This document shows positions 12,277 to 20,438 of a DNA stretch of 64,000 nt, one piece after another; the first letter of the stretch is position 1; each line of letters opens with the position of its first letter. This DNA comes from Alkalicaulis satelles (GTDB lineage: Bacteria; Pseudomonadota; Alphaproteobacteria; Caulobacterales; Maricaulaceae): positions 372,001 through 436,000 of the forward strand of contig NZ_VWOJ01000001.1 in NCBI RefSeq assembly GCF_008630495.1. Direction: 5' to 3'. The notes beneath the pieces are model-generated. The model was not told where the DNA came from and did no database searches. It was given only the letters and a program-made list of their open reading frames with translations. The position numbers and the translations under genes are program-made.

Positions 12277-13128
12277 TCACACCGCGCTCACCTGGCGTAA
12301 CTTGCCGTCTTCGATCACGATCTCCAGACCGTCATAGGCCGGGCGCACGCCGTCCGGCAGGCGCGCCAGCAGCGCGGCGTAATCGAGATCGATGTGGAGA
12401 TTGGTCAGCACGCCGAGCTGCGGTTTCACCTGCTCCAGCCAGTCCAGCGTGCGCGCCAGATGGGCGTGGCTGGGGTGCGGCTTGTCGCGCAGCGCGTCCA
12501 CGATCCACGCTTGCGCGCCCTCCAGCGCCTGGAACGCCCGGTCATCCAGCCCGCTCACATCGGGCGTATAGGCCAGCGGCCCGGCGCGCACGCCGCTGCA
12601 GGCCGCCCCGCCATGCTCCACATCGAACAGGCTCAGAGCCATCGCGCCCCCCGGCCCCGTCACCTCGAAGGCCTCGCCCGGGCGGTGTGCATGCGCGGTC
12701 ATGAGCGGCGGATAGGATGATCCTGCAGGGGTTTGGAAGATATAGTCAAAGCGATGGGTGATCTCGCGCGCGGTCTCAGGGCTCATATGCGCGGCCAAGC
12801 GTTCGCCGCGCCGGTAGACAATGGCGCGCACATCATCAATGCCATGGGCCTGGTCGGCATGGGCGTGGGTATAGACCACCGCATCGAGCGTTGTGACATG
12901 CGCGGCCAGCAATTGCGCGCGCAGATCCGGCGCGGTGTCTATAAGCGCGCGCGTGACTTTGCCTGAAACCAGATCGCTCATGGAGTCAGCGGCTTCCAGC
13001 AACAAGCTGCAGCGAAGCCTGCGGTTTTTCGGCTCCTCTGGATCGCACGCGCCCCAGTCGCCATCCACGCGCGGCACGCCGCCCGATGAGCCGCAGCCGA
13101 GGATGCGCGCGCGCAGCACCGCGCTCAT
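12277..13128 (-). CDS. MBL-fold metallohydrolase, PhnP-like
   Basis: The 283-residue protein is a metallo-beta-lactamase-fold hydrolase. The metal motif is THAHADQAHGIDD (HxHxDH type) near residue 88, with later histidines in LFDVEHGG and NLHIDLDY. The opening LGCGSSGGVPRVDGDWGACD is typical of the PhnP / phosphoribosyl 1,2-cyclic phosphate diesterase branch. There is no phn cluster here, so the substrate is not given by context. It overlaps tatD by 4 bp and ends a minus-strand run with tmk, holB and tatD, a neighbourhood common in alphaproteobacteria. Confidence 0.88.
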   Translation of the reverse strand: MSAVLRARILGCGSSGGVPRVDGDWGACDPEEPKNRRLRCSLLLEAADSMSDLVSGKVTRALIDTAPDLRAQLLAAHVTTLDAVVYTHAHADQAHGIDDVRAIVYRRGERLAAHMSPETAREITHRFDYIFQTPAGSSYPPLMTAHAHRPGEAFEVTGPGGAMALSLFDVEHGGAACSGVRAGPLAYTPDVSGLDDRAFQALEGAQAWIVDALRDKPHPSHAHLARTLDWLEQVKPQLGVLTNLHIDLDYAALLARLPDGVRPAYDGLEIVIEDGKLRQVSAV

Positions 13129-13910
13129 GGGCGCACGCGGATGCGGTCAAACAGGGCGAGCGCGCTCTGGGTCGTGCGCCGGGCCGTCTCTTCCAGGCTC
13201 CAGCCTTTCAGCGCGCCCAAGGCTTCGGCCACGTGCGGCAGGAAGGCTGGCTCATTGCGCCGGCCCCGGTGCGGCACGGGCGCCAGATACGGACAGTCGG
13301 TCTCCACGATGATCCGGTCTTGCGGGATCACATCACGGAACACCGCGCGCACATCCTCGGCCTTCTTGAAGGTGATGATGCCTGAAGCCGAGAAATAGAC
13401 GCCCAGCGCTGCGGCGCGCCGGGCCAGCTCCGCCCCGCCGGTATAGCAGTGCAAAAGCGCTCGGAAGGCCCCCTTCCCCATCTCCTCTTCAAGAAGATGA
13501 GCCATGGCCTCATCGGCCTCGCGGCAGTGCAGGATGATGGGCAGGCCGGTCAGGCGCGCGGCCTGGATATGGGCGCGCAGGCTCGCATACTGGGCGTCGG
13601 CGGGCGAATAATTGTAATGGAAGTCCAGCCCGGTCTCGCCAATGGCCACCACCTTGGGATGGCGCGCGATTTCAGCCAGCTCTTCGGCGGTGATGTCGGG
13701 GCGGTCCTTGGCGTGATGGGGATGGGCGCCGATGGTGCACCACACATCCTCATGGGCTTCGGCGATGGCCGATACGGCGTCAAAGTCGGAGAGCCGGCAG
13801 CAAATGGCGATCATGGGCGACACGCCGGCGTCCCGCGCGCGCTCCAGAACCGCGTCCAGGTCCCCGGCATAGTCCTCGCCGTGAATGTTCACATGGGTGT
13901 CGATGAGCAT
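13125..13910 (-). CDS. TatD-family metal-dependent hydrolase
   Basis: The 261-residue product is a TatD/YcfH TIM-barrel hydrolase. TatD proteins are metal-dependent 3'-5' exonucleases or related hydrolases in the cytoplasm. The motifs are VVAIGETGLDFHYNYSPAD near residue 90 (metal-ligand Glu), IILHCREAD (His), LLHCYTGG (His) and IIVETDCPYLAPVPHRGRRN (Asp and substrate residues). The first motif is THVNIHG instead of the common SHCHLD, so one canonical histidine is shifted; I recall this variant as frequent in alphaproteobacteria. It overlaps the MBL gene and follows holB by 6 bp. Confidence 0.92.
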   Translation of the reverse strand: MLIDTHVNIHGEDYAGDLDAVLERARDAGVSPMIAICCRLSDFDAVSAIAEAHEDVWCTIGAHPHHAKDRPDITAEELAEIARHPKVVAIGETGLDFHYNYSPADAQYASLRAHIQAARLTGLPIILHCREADEAMAHLLEEEMGKGAFRALLHCYTGGAELARRAAALGVYFSASGIITFKKAEDVRAVFRDVIPQDRIIVETDCPYLAPVPHRGRRNEPAFLPHVAEALGALKGWSLEETARRTTQSALALFDRIRVRP

Positions 13911-13916
13911 GGCAGG

Positions 13917-14942
13917 TCAGCTGGCGGCGGCGGTTCGCATCAGGCCGAGGGCGTAATGGATGGACTGGCGCGGGTCGAGATAGAGGTTTTCGGTATCGCT
14001 GGCCAGACGCGCCAGCTGGCCCGCCGCCTCGATCCAGGGCTCGGCGCCGCCGGGACCGGCCAGCGCCGCGTCGCGGGCGCGCTCGCGGGCATAGCTGATG
14101 AGAAAGCCCATCAGCACCTCGCGCAGGCCCTCGGCGTCCTTGCGCGCCACGCTGTCGGCGAGCCGGCGCGCGGCGCTGGCGTCCAGCTCCGGCAGGCGCG
14201 AGAGCGCCGCATCGATCACGTCTTTCAGCCCCGGCGCGTCCGTGGCCGCCAGCGCCAGCGCCCGGCCCGGCGCGCCATCGGCCAGCGCGCTCGCCCGCTG
14301 GGCCGCGCCTGCCTCCACGCCATGGGTTTGCGTCAGCCAGCGCGCGGTCTCGTCGGGTGACGGCGCGCGCAGGGCCAGCTGGCGGCAGCGCGAGCGTATG
14401 GTGGGCAGCACCCGGCCCGGCGCATTGACGATCAGCAGGAGAAGCCCGCGCCGGGGCGGCTCTTCCAGGGTTTTGAGCAGCGCATTGGCCGAGTTGGGAT
14501 TGAGATCATCGGCGCTGTCCACGATGGCCACGCGCCAGCCCCCCTCGCCTGCGCTCTTGGAGAAGAATTCGGACACCCGGCGGGTCTCGTCCACCGGGAT
14601 CTCGCCCTTGAGCTTGCCGGTCTTGTCATTGAAGGGCCGCCGGATCAAGAGCAGGTCAGCGCCCGACAGCGCCTCGATGCGCCGGCAGGCGGGATGGGCG
14701 GGATCGGCCGACAACGGCTCAGGCCCGGCCGCAGGAGCGCCCATCACCCGGCGCGCCAGGCGCCAGGCCAGCGTCGCCTTGCCCACGCCCTTGGGGCCGG
14801 TGATCATCCAGGCGTGATGCATGCGCCCGCGCGTGAACGCATCCTCCATGGCCGCTGCGGCGCGCGTATGGCCGAACAGCTCATACACGGTGCGCGGATG
14901 GGCCAGCTCGCCCTCACGGTCGGCTTCGGGCGTCTCGCTCAT
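13917..14942 (-). CDS. holB: DNA polymerase III delta-prime subunit
   Basis: HolB is the clamp-loader delta-prime subunit that helps DnaX open the sliding clamp. The 341-residue protein has a Walker A-like GPKGVGKATLAWRLAR at about 50-65, the conserved NALLKTLEEPPRRGLLLLI and the arginine-finger region TIRSRCRQLAL. The FGHTRAAAAMEDAF opening is typical of the family. The start overlaps the tmk stop by 4 bp, the usual tmk-holB coupling. Confidence 0.93.
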   Translation of the reverse strand: MSETPEADREGELAHPRTVYELFGHTRAAAAMEDAFTRGRMHHAWMITGPKGVGKATLAWRLARRVMGAPAAGPEPLSADPAHPACRRIEALSGADLLLIRRPFNDKTGKLKGEIPVDETRRVSEFFSKSAGEGGWRVAIVDSADDLNPNSANALLKTLEEPPRRGLLLLIVNAPGRVLPTIRSRCRQLALRAPSPDETARWLTQTHGVEAGAAQRASALADGAPGRALALAATDAPGLKDVIDAALSRLPELDASAARRLADSVARKDAEGLREVLMGFLISYARERARDAALAGPGGAEPWIEAAGQLARLASDTENLYLDPRQSIHYALGLMRTAAAS

Positions 14943-15571
14943 GGCAGGCCCAGCCGGGTTTCGATGGCGTCCAGCGCGGCGCGCGCCAGCGCATCGGGCG
15001 TCTGGCTGGCGTCCAGCACCACGCAGCGCTTGGGCTCGGCGGCGGCGATGTCCAGGAAGGCCTGGCGCAGGCGGGCGTGAAATTGGGGCGGATGGGCCTC
15101 GAAGCGGGTCACCGCCTCGCCTCGCGCACGGGTGCGCGCCATGCCGTCTTCCGGGTCCAGATCGGCGATCACGGTCAGGTCGGGCGCCATGGCGCCCAGC
15201 GCGGCCTGTTCGATGGCCGTGATGCGCGCCGCTTCCAGCCCTCCGGCTGCGCCCTGATAGGCGCGGGTGGAATCGGAAAACCGGTCACAGATCACCCAGG
15301 CGCCGCGCGCCAGCGCCGGTTCGATCAGCCGGCGCACATGATCCTCGCGCGCCGCAAAGAGCAGCAGGGTTTCGGCCACCGGCGACCAGCGGCCCGTCTC
15401 GCCCTCCAGCAGCAGCTCGCGCAGGGCCTCGGCATTGGGCGTGCCGCCGGGCTCGCGGGTCAGCACCACCTCCAGGCCGTGCGCCTGCAGAGCGTCACGC
15501 AGAGCGCGCGCCAGCGTCGTCTTGCCCGCCCCCTCCCCGCCTTCCAGCGTGATGAACCGTCCGCGCGCCAC
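14939..15571 (-). CDS. tmk: Thymidylate kinase
   Basis: Tmk phosphorylates dTMP to dTDP. The product is 210 residues. The P-loop is EGGEGAGKTTLARALRD at residues 9-25, the dTMP-binding DR motif is in ICDRFSDSTRAYQGAA and the segment LTREPGGTPNAEALRELLL is the family signature. It reads into holB with a 4-bp overlap and lies 7 bp after the carboxypeptidase gene. Confidence 0.96.
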   Translation of the reverse strand: MARGRFITLEGGEGAGKTTLARALRDALQAHGLEVVLTREPGGTPNAEALRELLLEGETGRWSPVAETLLLFAAREDHVRRLIEPALARGAWVICDRFSDSTRAYQGAAGGLEAARITAIEQAALGAMAPDLTVIADLDPEDGMARTRARGEAVTRFEAHPPQFHARLRQAFLDIAAAEPKRCVVLDASQTPDALARAALDAIETRLGLP

Positions 15572-15578
15572 GATGGGC

Positions 15579-16748
15579 TCAGCCGCCCCGGATCAGGCGC
15601 ACCAGGCCCGTCCCGGCCCGGCCCAGCAGGCCCTGGCGGTTCACGTCCTCGGCCGCCTCCACCGGCACGGAAAAGATCCGCCCGTCCGGCGTGGTCACTT
15701 CCAGGCGCCCGACGGAATCGCCCGCCTGCACCGGCGCGCGCAGCGGGCCGTCATAGACGATCTCGGCACGCACTCCGGCCCGGTCGCGCCGGTGCACGCC
15801 AAAGCTCAAACCCTCCACCGCCCGCAAGGCCACGGTTTCAGCCTGGCCCAGGAACACCTCCACCTGGCCCGCGCCCCCGCCCGCTTCGACCAGATTGACC
15901 AGCTCGAACTCGGTGAAGGCGGCGCGCATCAGGCGTTCGGCCTCGTCGGCGCGCGCGCGTTCGGTCTCCATGCCGTTGAACACCACGATGCGCCGCTGGC
16001 CGTCGCGCACCGCAGACGCGGTCAGGCCGAAGCCCGCCTCGCTGGTGCGCCCGGTTTTCAGACCGTCCGCGCCCTGCATCACGCCGATCAGGGGATTGCG
16101 GTTGAACTGGCGGATGCCGTTATAGGTGAACACCGGCTGGGCGTAGAAGCTGTAATACTGGGGGTAGTCGCGGATGATGATCTGCGCCAGGCGCGCCAGA
16201 TCGGCCGCCGAAATGCGGTGTTCCGGGTCCGGCCAGCCGGTGGAGTTGGCGAAGGTCGCGCTTTCCAGGCCCAGCTCGCGCGCGCGCTCGGTCATCATGG
16301 CCGAGAAATTCTCTTCGGTGCCGCCCAGCGCCTCGGCGATGACGATGCAGGCGTCATTGCCCGACTGGACGATGATGCCCTGCAAGAGATCTTCCACCGT
16401 GGCGCGCGAATTGACCTCCAGGAACATGGTCGACGAGCCCGAGGCGGCCCCGCCCCGGCGCCAGGCGGTCTCGCTGACGGGCAGTTCGGCATCCAGCGTC
16501 AGCCGTCCGTCCTCCAGCGCCTCGAACGCCATCAGGGCGGTCATCAGCTTGGACATGGAGGCCGGCGGCATGGGCTCCTCGCCGTTCTTGGAGAACAGGA
16601 TCGCGCCGGTCTCGTAATCCATGATCACCGCATGGCTGGCGCGGGTGTCGAACGCGCTCTGGCGCGCTTCAGCGCCGGGCGCAAGGCTGGCGGCGGCCCA
16701 GACGAGAACCATGATGGCGGCAAGGGGCTTCAGGGCGGGTAAGGACAC
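15579..16748 (-). CDS. D-alanyl-D-alanine carboxypeptidase (PBP5/6 type)
   Basis: This 389-residue exported enzyme trims the terminal D-Ala from peptidoglycan pentapeptides. A signal peptide covers about residues 1-28. The active-site motifs of the class are present: SxxK in ASMSKLMTALMAFEAL, SxN in VQSGNDACIVIAEALGG and KTG in GLKTGRTSEAGFGL. A C-terminal beta domain (PBP5_C) follows from about residue 275. An amphipathic anchor at the extreme C-terminus is plausible (LGRAGTGLVRLIRGG). It is followed by tmk after 7 bp and preceded by rlpA, both also on the minus strand. Confidence 0.94.
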   Translation of the reverse strand: MSLPALKPLAAIMVLVWAAASLAPGAEARQSAFDTRASHAVIMDYETGAILFSKNGEEPMPPASMSKLMTALMAFEALEDGRLTLDAELPVSETAWRRGGAASGSSTMFLEVNSRATVEDLLQGIIVQSGNDACIVIAEALGGTEENFSAMMTERARELGLESATFANSTGWPDPEHRISAADLARLAQIIIRDYPQYYSFYAQPVFTYNGIRQFNRNPLIGVMQGADGLKTGRTSEAGFGLTASAVRDGQRRIVVFNGMETERARADEAERLMRAAFTEFELVNLVEAGGGAGQVEVFLGQAETVALRAVEGLSFGVHRRDRAGVRAEIVYDGPLRAPVQAGDSVGRLEVTTPDGRIFSVPVEAAEDVNRQGLLGRAGTGLVRLIRGG

Positions 16749-16843
16749 GGGGGCCAGTCTCCGGACAAGCGTGGGATCACAGGCGCACAGAGTAACCGCC
16801 CCGGCGCCGGGCTGAAAGGCTGTCGGCCAGCAATGTCCACCGT

Positions 16844-17401
16844 TCAGCGCTGCGCGCTCACCCGCGCGCCCGGCCCGCGCACGATGCGAGAGACGGCGGC
16901 CCGGTCCTCGCGGTCGGCGGGTCCCAGCACCTCGATGCGCACTTCGGCCAGGCCCTCCTCGACAAAATCCAGCGCCTCAGCCGCCGCACGGCTGAGATCG
17001 ATGATGCGCCCGTCAATATAGGGCCCGCGGTCATTGACCCGCACGATCACGCTGTCACCGGTGTCCAGGCGCGTGACGCGGGCAAGGCTGGGCAGGTCCA
17101 GGGTCAGATGGGCGGCGCTCAGCGCGTCCTGATCAAAAATCTCGCCATTGGCGGTGAGCCGGCCATGAAAACCCGGCCCGTACCAGGAGGCTGTGCCCTC
17201 CTCCACGCCGCGCACCGCCAGCCAGTCGCCCTCCACCTTCACCCGGTCCGCGCCAGGCGCGGGGGCGGGCGTGCGCGCGGGCGGCGGCCCTGCGCGGACC
17301 GTGTCCAGCGGCGCTTCCACCGGCGCGCCGGCGCAGGCGGTGAGCAGGCAGACCGGCAGGATGGACGCGCTCAGGAGCGCTGCGCTCAATCTCACGGGCA
17401 A
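16844..17401 (-). CDS. rlpA: RlpA-family septal lytic transglycosylase lipoprotein
   Basis: The 185-residue product begins with a lipoprotein signal whose lipobox is LTAC (Cys near residue 23). The double-psi beta-barrel domain spans about 65-165: EEGTASWYGPGFHGRLTANG, then VRVNDRGPYIDGRIIDLSRA, with the catalytic Asp in NDRGPY. There is no SPOR domain, which the longer RlpA proteins use to find denuded septal glycan. It probably acts in the outer membrane on peptidoglycan during division. The carboxypeptidase gene lies 95 bp downstream. Confidence 0.9.
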   Translation of the reverse strand: MPVRLSAALLSASILPVCLLTACAGAPVEAPLDTVRAGPPPARTPAPAPGADRVKVEGDWLAVRGVEEGTASWYGPGFHGRLTANGEIFDQDALSAAHLTLDLPSLARVTRLDTGDSVIVRVNDRGPYIDGRIIDLSRAAAEALDFVEEGLAEVRIEVLGPADREDRAAVSRIVRGPGARVSAQR

Positions 17402-17612
17402 TCTCGCTCGGCTTCCAGAGCATCAAGCATACACGCCGGCCGGATAGCCGGAAATGACCTGACGCGCCCATGGGAACTCATCCTGTGCGTTATCAGTGAG
17501 CGCCAATAAGGCGGCGCAATGATGGACCATAACAACTTAATGTGGTATTTGCGCCGTCATGGCTGGCAATGCGCCGCCAGCCAGGTGAAGCAACTCATAC
17601 CGGGGACCCATC

Positions 17613-19136
17613 ATGAACACATTCCGCATCAGGATGTCCGCGCTGGCTGCTTGCATCAGCCTGTTTGCAGGCCCAGCCGCCGCACAAAACTGTGACTCGG
17701 TCTGTGTTGAAGGTGAAACCTGCATCGCCGCCGCGCTCTACCCTTATGTTCCCGACACAACGGCCTTCGCATCGGCGATCTGTTCGGCCTGGAGCCAGGC
17801 CGGATATACCGAGAAGCTTTATCTGATCGCTGATGAATCGGTATGGGACGGAGGGTATTCATCCGACCCCGTCTACACCAATGGCAGCGGGGCCCAGACC
17901 CCCATCGACGTGTTTGTCTATGACGCCATGTATCTCAATTACTGGGCGCAACAGACCGTTCCGGTGCCGGCGGACCAGATCAGCGATCCCGGTGATTTCG
18001 TTGAGTACGCCCGCACGGCGCTGGTCAGATCTGACGGCTCCATGACCGCCCTGCCCGTTTTGGGCTGCACGAACATCATGTTCTATCTTCAGGGCGATAG
18101 CGGCATGGAAGGCGTCAGCACGCTGGCGCAGTTTTTCGACGTCAATCCCGCTGGCGTCTATATCAGCCCGGTCCCCTTTGGCCGATCGGGCGCCATGCTG
18201 GACATGTCTGGCAGCACCACGATCGGCGTGGACTACATGGTCCGGGGATATCTGCAGAACGGCGCCTGGCCGGATATGGGTCCGCTGGACGGCGCTATCA
18301 TCACCCCGCTGGCGCGCCTTTCTGAATCGGCGAGCTATTACAATGCGCTCACAGGCGCCATTCCCAGCCTGCCCGATGTCGAAGATCAGTATGTGCGCGC
18401 CGGCTATTTCAGCCAGGGCTATGGGCGCACCTCCATCGGGTTTTCCGAAAGCATGTCGCAGATGTCTGACGACACGCGCAGCCGCGTGAGGCTGAGCGCC
18501 TTCCCCTGGAGCGATCATGCTGACGCCAACAATTTGTTTTATGCTGATGTGGCGGGGGTGAACGCGCAATCTTCCTTCCTGGCCGATGGCGGCGATTTGC
18601 CGTTCAGGCTGGCCAATCTGATGACCCGGGAGGCGGTGTTGCAGGACTCCATCGCCCCGCCGGGCGGGCCGCTATCCTATCTCTTCCCCGCGCGGGTCAG
18701 CGTTCTGAATTCACTGGCGCAACAGGATCCGCTCTACGCCCAGATGGCCGGCGTTCTCAACAGCAAGCCCGCCGAGCTGGTCGCCATGCCCACATCAGAC
18801 CGCGACGCCTTCCACGCCTTTGGCGGGACGGTGCGCAGTGCGGTCAAGCAGGCTTTCCAGGGGCATTGCGATCTGGAGAGCCCGCAATTCATCAACTCCA
18901 ACACCCAGGCCCAGACCATCTGCCCGCAAGTTTGCGCCGATAGCGGAGGATGGATCGGTTCCTGGACCAATGTGGCGCCGCCCGCCTGGCCGCAATATTC
19001 GGCGTGCGGGTGTGCCGTGTGCACCGCTGACAGCCCGCTGCCGCCTGCGGCTGACGGGACCGGAATGCGCGCCTTCTCCCCGATGCGCGCGTCCATCGCG
19101 CCGACTGACGGCGTGCGGCGCTATCAGCGCAACTGA
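17613..19136 (+). CDS. Exported thiaminase I with C-terminal MVL-like lectin domain
   Basis: Residues 1-25 are a signal peptide. Residues about 38-410 match thiaminase I (thiamine pyridinylase), which has a periplasmic-binding-protein fold and swaps the thiazole of thiamine for another base. The evidence is ALYPYVPDTTAF, IDVFVYDAMYLNYW, the nucleophile motif LPVLGCTNIMFY (C152) and YVRAGYFSQGYGRTSIGFSES with acid E279. The Cys-Glu spacing of 127 is nearly that of the known enzyme (Cys113, Glu241, as I recall). Residues 419-470 are a separate six-Cys-containing module: TQAQTICPQVCADSGGWIGS, then SACGCAVC, which resembles the mannan-binding MVL domain. A 35-residue tail follows. The gene stands alone; no thi genes or TPP riboswitch are visible. 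Confidence 0.82.
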   Translation: MNTFRIRMSALAACISLFAGPAAAQNCDSVCVEGETCIAAALYPYVPDTTAFASAICSAWSQAGYTEKLYLIADESVWDGGYSSDPVYTNGSGAQTPIDVFVYDAMYLNYWAQQTVPVPADQISDPGDFVEYARTALVRSDGSMTALPVLGCTNIMFYLQGDSGMEGVSTLAQFFDVNPAGVYISPVPFGRSGAMLDMSGSTTIGVDYMVRGYLQNGAWPDMGPLDGAIITPLARLSESASYYNALTGAIPSLPDVEDQYVRAGYFSQGYGRTSIGFSESMSQMSDDTRSRVRLSAFPWSDHADANNLFYADVAGVNAQSSFLADGGDLPFRLANLMTREAVLQDSIAPPGGPLSYLFPARVSVLNSLAQQDPLYAQMAGVLNSKPAELVAMPTSDRDAFHAFGGTVRSAVKQAFQGHCDLESPQFINSNTQAQTICPQVCADSGGWIGSWTNVAPPAWPQYSACGCAVCTADSPLPPAADGTGMRAFSPMRASIAPTDGVRRYQRN

Positions 19137-19214
19137 ACACGCCCGTGTTCGCCGCCGCCAGCGGTCCTGCCCGCTTGCCTCGCCTGCATGCCTGGCGCTA
19201 AACCCTTGCGGGCC

Positions 19215-19304
<90 letters not shown>

Positions 19305-19538: not shown

Positions 19539-20438
19539 ATGTCTGAGATGACGCACGCCACTGGCCATGCCCCGCCCGGTTCAGGCGCGCCGGATACGCA
19601 CGGCGCCAAACGCCGCCGCGCGGTGACGCCCGTGGATGCGGCGCAGGCGCCGGCCATGGAGCGGCTTTTGTCGGTCATGGAGGCGCTGCGCGATCCGGAC
19701 GGCGGTTGCGCCTGGGATCTGGAGCAGGATTTCGCCTCCATCGCGCCCTACACGCTGGAAGAGGCCTATGAGGTCTGTGACGCCATTGCGCGCGGCGATA
19801 TGGGCGATCTGCGCGAGGAGCTGGGCGATCTCCTTTTGCAGGTGGTGTTTCACAGCCAGATGGCTGAAGAGGCGGGGCATTTCCGGTTCGAGGATGTGGC
19901 CGAAGCCATCACGGACAAGATGATCCGGCGCCATCCCCATGTCTTCGCTGGCGCCAGCGTGCGCGATGCGGCTGAACAGACCCGCGCCTGGGAGGTGCAG
20001 AAGGCCGAGGAGCGCGCCGGAAAAAGCAATGAAGACAATTCCTTGCTGGCCAATATTCCCCTCGCCCTGCCCGCCCTGGTGCGCGCTGAAAAACTGACCA
20101 AGCGCGCAGCCCGCGTCGGTTTTGACTGGCCCTCGGCCGAGCGCGTGTTTGACAAGCTCGATGAGGAGCTGGCCGAAGTGCGTGAGGCTTTGGCCGCGGG
20201 CGACCAGGACCATGTGGCCGAGGAGCTGGGCGATCTGTTATTCGTGATCGCCAATCTGGCGCGCAAGCTGGGCGCCGATCCGGAAGCCGCCCTGCGCGCG
20301 GCCAACGCCAAATTCGAGCGCCGCTTCAGACAGATAGAAGATGCGCTTGAAGGTCAGGGCAAGACATGTGCTGAAGCCAGCCTGGATGAGATGGAAGCGC
20401 TCTGGCTGGCGGCCAAGCGCACCGAGCGCAAGGGCTGA
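19539..20438 (+). CDS. mazG: Nucleoside triphosphate pyrophosphohydrolase MazG
   Basis: MazG hydrolyses (d)NTPs to monophosphates and pyrophosphate. The 299-residue protein has two MazG repeats. The first has GCAWDLEQDFASIAPYTLEE and the metal motif EEAYEVCDAI plus EELGDLLLQVVFHSQMAEE. The second has KLDEELAEVREAL and EELGDLLFVIANLARKLG. The N-terminal 39 residues (HATGHAPPGSGAPDTHGAK and so on) are not part of the fold, so the true start may be Met40 at 19656. The gene is convergent with hflX, 8 bp apart. Confidence 0.93.
   Translation: MSEMTHATGHAPPGSGAPDTHGAKRRRAVTPVDAAQAPAMERLLSVMEALRDPDGGCAWDLEQDFASIAPYTLEEAYEVCDAIARGDMGDLREELGDLLLQVVFHSQMAEEAGHFRFEDVAEAITDKMIRRHPHVFAGASVRDAAEQTRAWEVQKAEERAGKSNEDNSLLANIPLALPALVRAEKLTKRAARVGFDWPSAERVFDKLDEELAEVREALAAGDQDHVAEELGDLLFVIANLARKLGADPEAALRAANAKFERRFRQIEDALEGQGKTCAEASLDEMEALWLAAKRTERKG

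Follow-up and report, generated by a model that had tools for sequence, protein, structure and literature searches.

The DNA analysed here, called the window, is a stretch of 64,000 nucleotides from Alkalicaulis satelles (contig NZ_VWOJ01000001.1), in which an open reading frame (ORF) with an ATG start encodes a predicted thiaminase I of 507 amino acids (aa) that carries a second, C-terminal module (Table 1). A sequence-only reading had described a secreted thiaminase I standing alone in an alphaproteobacterium. That interpretation was partly supported in the current study; missing from it were the C-terminal module of the type found in MVL, the mannan-binding lectin of Microcystis viridis, the thiamine-synthesis genes of the host, an empty tRNA-Ser site in relatives, and the divergence of the clade to which the window protein belongs.

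The thiaminase gene and its catalytic domain

Membership of the thiaminase I family was confirmed by profile searches and by the structure model, as had been proposed from motifs. The protein matched TIGR04541 (NCBIfam thiamine pyridinylase) over residues 32-391 with 196.2 bits (E 8e-58), exceeding the equivalog cut-off of 175 by 21 bits, and Pfam family PF22141 (Thiaminase-1_dom) with 65.2 bits (cut-off 27). PDB entry 2THI was matched by phmmer with an E value of 4e-34. These scores place family membership far beyond chance and, together with the structure ranking given below, rule out a chance motif match. For 8 chosen pairs of relatives, the ratio of nonsynonymous to synonymous substitutions (dN/dS, Nei-Gojobori) lay between 0.06 and 0.23, with dS saturated for the window against locus L025.

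A profile scan of genome contigs yielded 37 thiaminase loci, of which 35 were intact and were compared with the window (36 sequences). Left out of the alignment and tree were L058, which is cut by a contig end, and L061 (5164-6069), a Lachnospiraceae thiaminase relative with an interrupted frame. Four of the 37 loci coincide with loci from another genome search and were counted once (L025 = L002, L030 = L006, L034 = L004 and L038 = L003). The scan used two short peptide patterns and left distant branches, such as the myxobacterial thiaminases, unsampled.

The window protein contains ALYPYVPD, LGCTNIMFY (which includes Cys152) and YVRAGYFSQGYGR (from residue 260), and Glu279 sits in GFSES, seven residues beyond YVRAGYFSQGYGR. 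In the phmmer alignment Cys152 and Glu279 fall on chain positions Cys113 and Glu241 of 2THI, which we take to be its catalytic pair. Both residues, already named as catalytic from the sequence, were invariant in all 36 aligned thiaminases, as were Y43, Y82, D99, D104, D128, R262 and D312 (among others); Y260 and Y310 were each kept in 35.

The model of the full protein (AlphaFold2, 36-row alignment) had a mean predicted local distance difference test score (pLDDT) of 88.7 and a predicted template modelling score (pTM) of 0.86. When PDB was searched with it by Foldseek, ranks 1-4 were taken by 3THI, two chains of 4KYS and the eukaryotic 4HCW (E 2e-29 to 1.3e-14). The template modelling (TM) score of 3THI against the window model was 0.88 by target length. 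Alignment and TM score together imply that Cys152 and Glu279 would lie in the thiamine pocket.

Sugar-binding proteins appeared in the same ranking from E 5e-14, barely behind 4HCW. The fold is that of solute-binding proteins, and SBP_bac_1 was matched in 19 of the 36 members, as would be seen if the protein bound thiamine without catalysis and had been misnamed as an enzyme. However, thiaminases rank first in the fold search, the Cys and Glu are invariant, and no ABC transporter gene was present among the 12 scanned neighbours, so that such a misnaming is extremely improbable; a plain solute-binding protein was ruled out by the Cys/Glu pair and the structure ranking.

The N-terminus looks, by inspection, like a Sec signal peptide ending in AAA before QN, and the export claimed in the sequence-only reading is plausible on this basis. 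LAAC at residues 11-14 fits the lipobox pattern and lies early in the peptide; its Cys is absent from the other nine members of the clade described below (the window clade), none of which has a lipobox by simple pattern. Ten non-catalytic cysteines of the mature protein are common to all ten clade members, three of them in an N-terminal cluster; in the other 17 sequences with the module, no residue aligns with C27 or C31. At the opposite end, where residues 482-507 have a pLDDT below 50, a C-terminal (R/Q)YxRN follows a variable linker in nine of the ten members (including loci among L026-L033), and L025 has QRN. The RYxRN tail was rejected as a general sorting signal: a pattern with CGN arginine codons only occurred once in the host genome, at the thiaminase gene, and a reversed control pattern gave 7 matches.

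Table 1. Features of the thiaminase locus, in window coordinates
Feature	Position	Strand	Basis
Thiaminase I (thiamine pyridinylase) gene with C-terminal MVL-type module, 507 aa + stop	17613..19136	+	ORF, family profiles, PDB match
Probable Sec signal peptide, residues 1-24, expected cut between AAA and QN	17613..17684	+	Inspection; model helix 2-18, pLDDT < 50 at 21-24
N-terminal Cys cluster C27, C31, C37 of the window clade	17691..17723	+	Shared by the ten clade members
Thiaminase I catalytic domain, periplasmic-binding-protein fold, residues 36-395	17718..18797	+	2THI alignment, model, fold search
Nucleophile Cys152 (2THI Cys113)	18066..18068	+	Alignment; invariant 36/36
Catalytic Glu279 (2THI Glu241)	18447..18449	+	Alignment; invariant 36/36
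MVL (PF12151)-type Cys-rich module, residues about 419-471: strand, helix, strand, strand	18867..19025	+	PF12151 match, module model
Extreme C-terminal tail RYQRN, after linker of low model confidence	19119..19133	+	Clade comparison
rlpA-like gene (DPBB_1 domain), left neighbour	16844..17401	-	Pfam
tRNA-Ser(TGA), adjoins thiaminase gene	19215..19304	+	tRNA match
mazG, right neighbour past tRNA	19539..20438	+	Pfam

The C-terminal module and its distribution

Scanned alone, the C-terminal module scored 26.5 bits against PF12151 (mannan-binding lectin MVL; cut-off 25), and in a six-frame genome search the score was 26.0 bits. One PF12151 stretch was matched, at residues 430-467, and no tandem pair of units as in MVL was found. 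Modelled on its own (pLDDT 84.4, strand-helix-strand-strand), the module is predicted to have the MVL fold, apo MVL 1ZHQ being its first and sole high-probability match (probability 0.97, E 0.068) and the other seven matches being at or below 0.04. The same entry ranked first when a profile of the modules was compared with PDB (E 0.061). In the alignment of module and MVL, W37 of MVL is kept as W451 of the window protein, and the first tryptophan (that of LWSN in MVL) is not kept.

Module presence, scored by the GGW and CGCxxC motifs, was found in 27 of the 36 thiaminases (20 from Pseudomonadota, one from Binatota and six from cyanobacteria), and the module was absent from the remaining nine, eight from Bacillota and one from a bin titled Chloroflexi. 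Carriers include the window, Maricaulaceae bacterium EIL42A08, Stappiaceae, Oceaniradius, Sulfitobacter, several alphaproteobacterial bins, Bradyrhizobium, Xanthobacteraceae, Rhodopila, Terasakiella, Ectothiorhodospiraceae, two Burkholderiales, one Binatia and the six cyanobacteria. PF12151 was matched at E <= 0.01 in 25 of the 27 isolated modules (best 4.8e-11). Invariant in all 27, in module-alignment numbering, are C9, D10, A23, C27, C31, GGW 35-37, W41, P46, CGC 55-57 and C60.

When a maximum-likelihood tree was built from the catalytic domain only (36 sequences, unrooted), the sets with and without the module were split by one branch with support of 100/100. On this unrooted tree the split could reflect gain of the module in one lineage or its loss in the other. 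The tree carried warnings for a long end branch (L059) and for three rows with odd composition. The window clade comprises ten sequences (two Maricaulaceae, four Stappiaceae, one Ahrensiaceae, one Roseobacteraceae and two unplaced alphaproteobacterial records) and has support of 100/100, its nearest sister being weakly supported (82/77). This marine alphaproteobacterial clade includes named strains of Roseibium, Labrenzia, Sulfitobacter and Oceaniradius, some of which presumably come from algae.

The statement that thiaminase I is known mostly from Firmicutes and some protists is thus incomplete, as the enzyme was found in Stappiaceae, Ahrensiaceae, Roseobacteraceae, Terasakiella, Bradyrhizobium, Burkholderia, Binatia and six cyanobacteria, and a myxobacterial thiaminase I is described in PMC10499793.

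Elsewhere in the host genome, two further PF12151 matches were weak and fell short of the cut-off, and the profile had matches in 2 of 14 control genomes as well. Among 398 sampled Pseudomonadota genomes, for which part of the candidates were scored, PF12151 was matched at E <= 0.001 in at least 13 (the window's own included), and in 11 of these the score exceeded the cut-off. Twelve of these loci were inspected; nine had readable frames, and several encode small proteins that look exported and contain one or two units. In another Pseudomonadota genome (L097), a 545-residue exported-looking protein ends in a similar Cys-rich WNGQWTN module, and the module may therefore serve other exported proteins.

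Genome setting and thiamine genes of the host

The thiaminase gene was present in 2 of 137 genomes of the window's family, both of the window's own genus (2 of its 15 genomes, counting that of the window). The second carrier, Maricaulaceae bacterium EIL42A08 (G091), agrees with the alphaproteobacterial host named earlier. In a sample of the class, 4 of 385 genomes passed the TIGR04541 cut-off; 12 of the 16 matches were weak (20-29 bits) and were not counted, since 3 of 14 controls also matched below the cut-off.

In the window, the rlpA-like gene and tRNA-Ser(TGA) are 1,813 bases apart with the thiaminase gene between them. Stretches around mazG were compared from 10 of the 14 same-genus relatives. 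In five of these (L081-L084 and L088) the rlpA match lies at most 279 bases from the same tRNA, with no thiaminase match in the stretch, which suggests that the gene was gained or lost at a variable site beside the tRNA. The rlpA/tRNA site was not visible in the stretches of L080, L085, L086 and L089. The stretch of G091 (L087) showed no rlpA match and had its thiaminase gene about 3.9 kb beyond tRNA-Ser. The G+C content of the thiaminase gene (62.3%) was the lowest of 25 chosen window ORFs, and its third-position G+C and codon score were second lowest.

The order of the surrounding genes also differs. Compared with the five relatives that have the short site, the window block from Lactamase_B_2 to tRNA-Ser (12277-19304) is inverted relative to mazG-hflX; in those relatives mazG is next to Lactamase_B_2, and tRNA-Ser is found on the far side of the rlpA-like gene.

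The 12 scanned neighbour proteins have general cell functions (Lactamase_B_2, TatD, HolB-like, Tmk, D-Ala-D-Ala carboxypeptidase, RlpA-like, MazG, HflX, Hfq, TrkH, TrkA and a sigma-54 regulator). No thiM, thiD, thiE, bacimethrin or other thiamine gene was found among them, and the claim that the gene stands alone held. Control by a thiamine pyrophosphate (TPP) riboswitch was rejected, none being detected in the window at Rfam gathering scores.

Phage or plasmid cargo was also rejected: there was no match in phages and no relative in viral contigs, and plasmid matches were confined to Rhodococcus fascians D188. The plasmid records of that strain (NC_021080.1 and NZ_CP015236.1) hold a remote thiaminase annotated bcmE, with 23% identity.

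In four Stappiaceae loci (L026, L028, L029 and L031) the thiaminase gene comes after an ORF that by eye resembles bacterioferritin, and because of this shared neighbour the gene seems to be stably inherited in Stappiaceae. A MutY-like ORF, also recognised by eye, lies a few genes upstream in the same four loci, and their neighbourhood differs from that of the window.

The host genome contained one TPP riboswitch match, upstream of an ORF recognised by eye as ThiC, together with a ThiG match and two TMP-TENI matches, the stronger of which was taken as ThiE. TenA and ThiM (PF02110) had no match in the host genome at E <= 0.001. The genes found cover both halves of thiamine and the step that joins them. 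The host therefore probably makes thiamine and is unlikely to need the enzyme to obtain it, as judged from a gene set in which ThiD and the transporters for thiamine and hydroxymethylpyrimidine (HMP) were not searched.

The same genes bear on the proposal that the enzyme serves salvage, freeing the pyrimidine (and thiazole) from environmental thiamine or its analogues for uptake and reuse by the host. Such a role has been proposed for Burkholderia thailandensis (cited in PMC10499793) and for Paenibacillus (PMC5627462), and a ThiE-type protein could rejoin the phosphorylated pyrimidine. However, ThiM and TenA were unmatched, the ThiC-like ORF and ThiG suggest that thiamine is made de novo, and neither a neighbouring thiamine gene nor a riboswitch accompanies the thiaminase gene. 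Salvage is consequently unlikely here, and a role directed outwards is the likelier of the two. Another possibility is that the enzyme protects its host by destroying toxic thiamine analogues of neighbours in the periplasm. Its predicted location would suit this, and Microcystis aeruginosa releases bacimethrin and methoxythiamin (PMC12345177), but no partner transporter or regulator was recognised beside the gene, and we regard detoxification as very unlikely.

Proposed function and comparison with known systems

The best reading of these results, which we hold with moderate confidence from the sequence comparisons and models, is that of an exported, vitamin B1-destroying thiaminase I directed outwards and perhaps anchored to glycans. 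The predicted protein would leave the cytoplasm by the Sec route. Cys152 would then attack the pyrimidine of thiamine, the thiazole would leave, and an external nucleophile would replace it, as in the Paenibacillus enzyme; destruction of thiamine outside the cytoplasm is what the chemistry of the family would lead one to expect. The enzyme would more likely destroy B1 needed by others (algae, protists or competing bacteria) than salvage it. The MVL module would most likely bind glycans and so tether the enzyme to a polysaccharide or cell surface, either that of the host or that of a neighbour. There is a precedent for an outward role: the myxobacterial thiaminase I CcThi1, carried in outer-membrane vesicles, inhibits Phytophthora through thiamine removal (PMC10499793). 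The effect on neighbours suggested in the sequence-only reading is plausible.

Several observations weigh against this interpretation. With respect to location, a signal peptide alone takes a Gram-negative protein to the periplasm and not outside the cell. As regards the module, the whole window protein scored 20.4 against PF12151, below the Pfam cut-off of 25, PF12151 was matched at E <= 0.01 in 21 of the 36 whole proteins, and each of the two matches to MVL, by sequence and by fold, has E > 0.05 when taken singly. Mannan binding cannot be assumed, because the module is single-copy and lacks the first tryptophan of LWSN, and its ligand may differ from that of MVL. In addition, HMP salvage may still take place, given that ThiD and the thiamine/HMP transporters were outside the search.

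The divergence of the window clade also counts against the preferred interpretation. Its stem branch has 2.2 changes per column, W is replaced by Y at 265 and, near the nucleophile, L by M at 156, and clade-specific inserted stretches occur near residues 89-95 and 249-251; substrate preference could thus have moved. Carried further, and with PQ to LS at 354-355 added, these changes would fit a neofunctionalised clade in which the ten marine alphaproteobacterial proteins keep the Cys/Glu chemistry and act on a substrate other than thiamine. This appears distinctly unlikely, since at 13 chosen pocket and catalytic sites the clade's residue is also found in other thiaminases, and the TIGR04541 equivalog cut-off is passed by 21 bits.

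A broader suggestion, offered tentatively and as one that may well prove wrong, is that Gram-negative thiaminases are glycan-anchored vitamin destroyers, in which the MVL module would dock the enzyme on surface polysaccharide of algae or bacteria and so let B1-making bacteria strip B1 from thiamine-dependent neighbours at the cell surface. If this were true, it would represent a biological B1 sink in the sea that is uncounted by gene lists based on tenA (thiaminase II). In one marine B1 study (PMC10881298) 'thiaminase' is used once, for tenA as thiaminase II, and thiaminase I may for this reason go uncounted in the sea.

Thiaminase I itself is already known, Gram-negatives included, and cyanobacteria and rotifers are named as producers in PMC10499793, where its role is said to have 'long been a mystery'. 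Three things appear to be new: the combination of enzyme and module, the way in which it cleanly separates the groups, and the divergent clade from marine Alphaproteobacteria; in the open-licence PMC literature, thiaminase was not found linked with mannan-binding or Microcystis viridis lectin or PF12151, nor with Labrenzia. The presence of a lectin-type module in 27/27 thiaminases of Pseudomonadota, Binatota and cyanobacteria, against 0/8 of Bacillota, the group of the classic enzyme, offers a handle on the role of thiaminase I through the ligand of the module.

The classic enzyme, that of Paenibacillus (Bacillus) thiaminolyticus (2THI/3THI/4THI), resembles the window protein in fold, in its Cys113/Glu241 pair and in many residues (32% identity over the aligned part), and is exported, as the window protein probably is. 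Unlike the window protein, the five close Paenibacillus relatives compared have no C-terminal MVL-type module. In Paenibacillus the thiaminase gene shares an operon with thiM, thiD, thiE and bacimethrin genes (PMC5627462), whereas none of these was found among the 12 scanned neighbours of the window gene. CcThi1 from the myxobacterium Corallococcus sp. EGB is also a Gram-negative thiaminase I; it is exported, and its Cys148 and Glu269 were mutated as catalytic residues (PMC10499793). It is a lipoprotein found in vesicles, whereas nine of the ten window-clade members are without a lipobox by simple pattern.

The thiaminases of Stappiaceae, Oceaniradius, Bradyrhizobium, Burkholderia cepacia LK29, Moorena, Okeania and others share the layout of a catalytic domain followed by an MVL-type module. 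The window clade differs from the other module-bearing enzymes in its N-terminal Cys cluster, inserted stretches, RYxRN tail and long stem branch. MVL of Microcystis viridis (1ZHQ/1ZHS), which belongs to the PF12151 family, is the best fold match of the module, and the equivalent of its W37 is kept. The two tandem units of MVL (described in PMC11203576) contrast with the single unit fused to the enzyme in the window, and the two aligned stretches of MVL are without Cys, whereas the thiaminase module has six invariant Cys.
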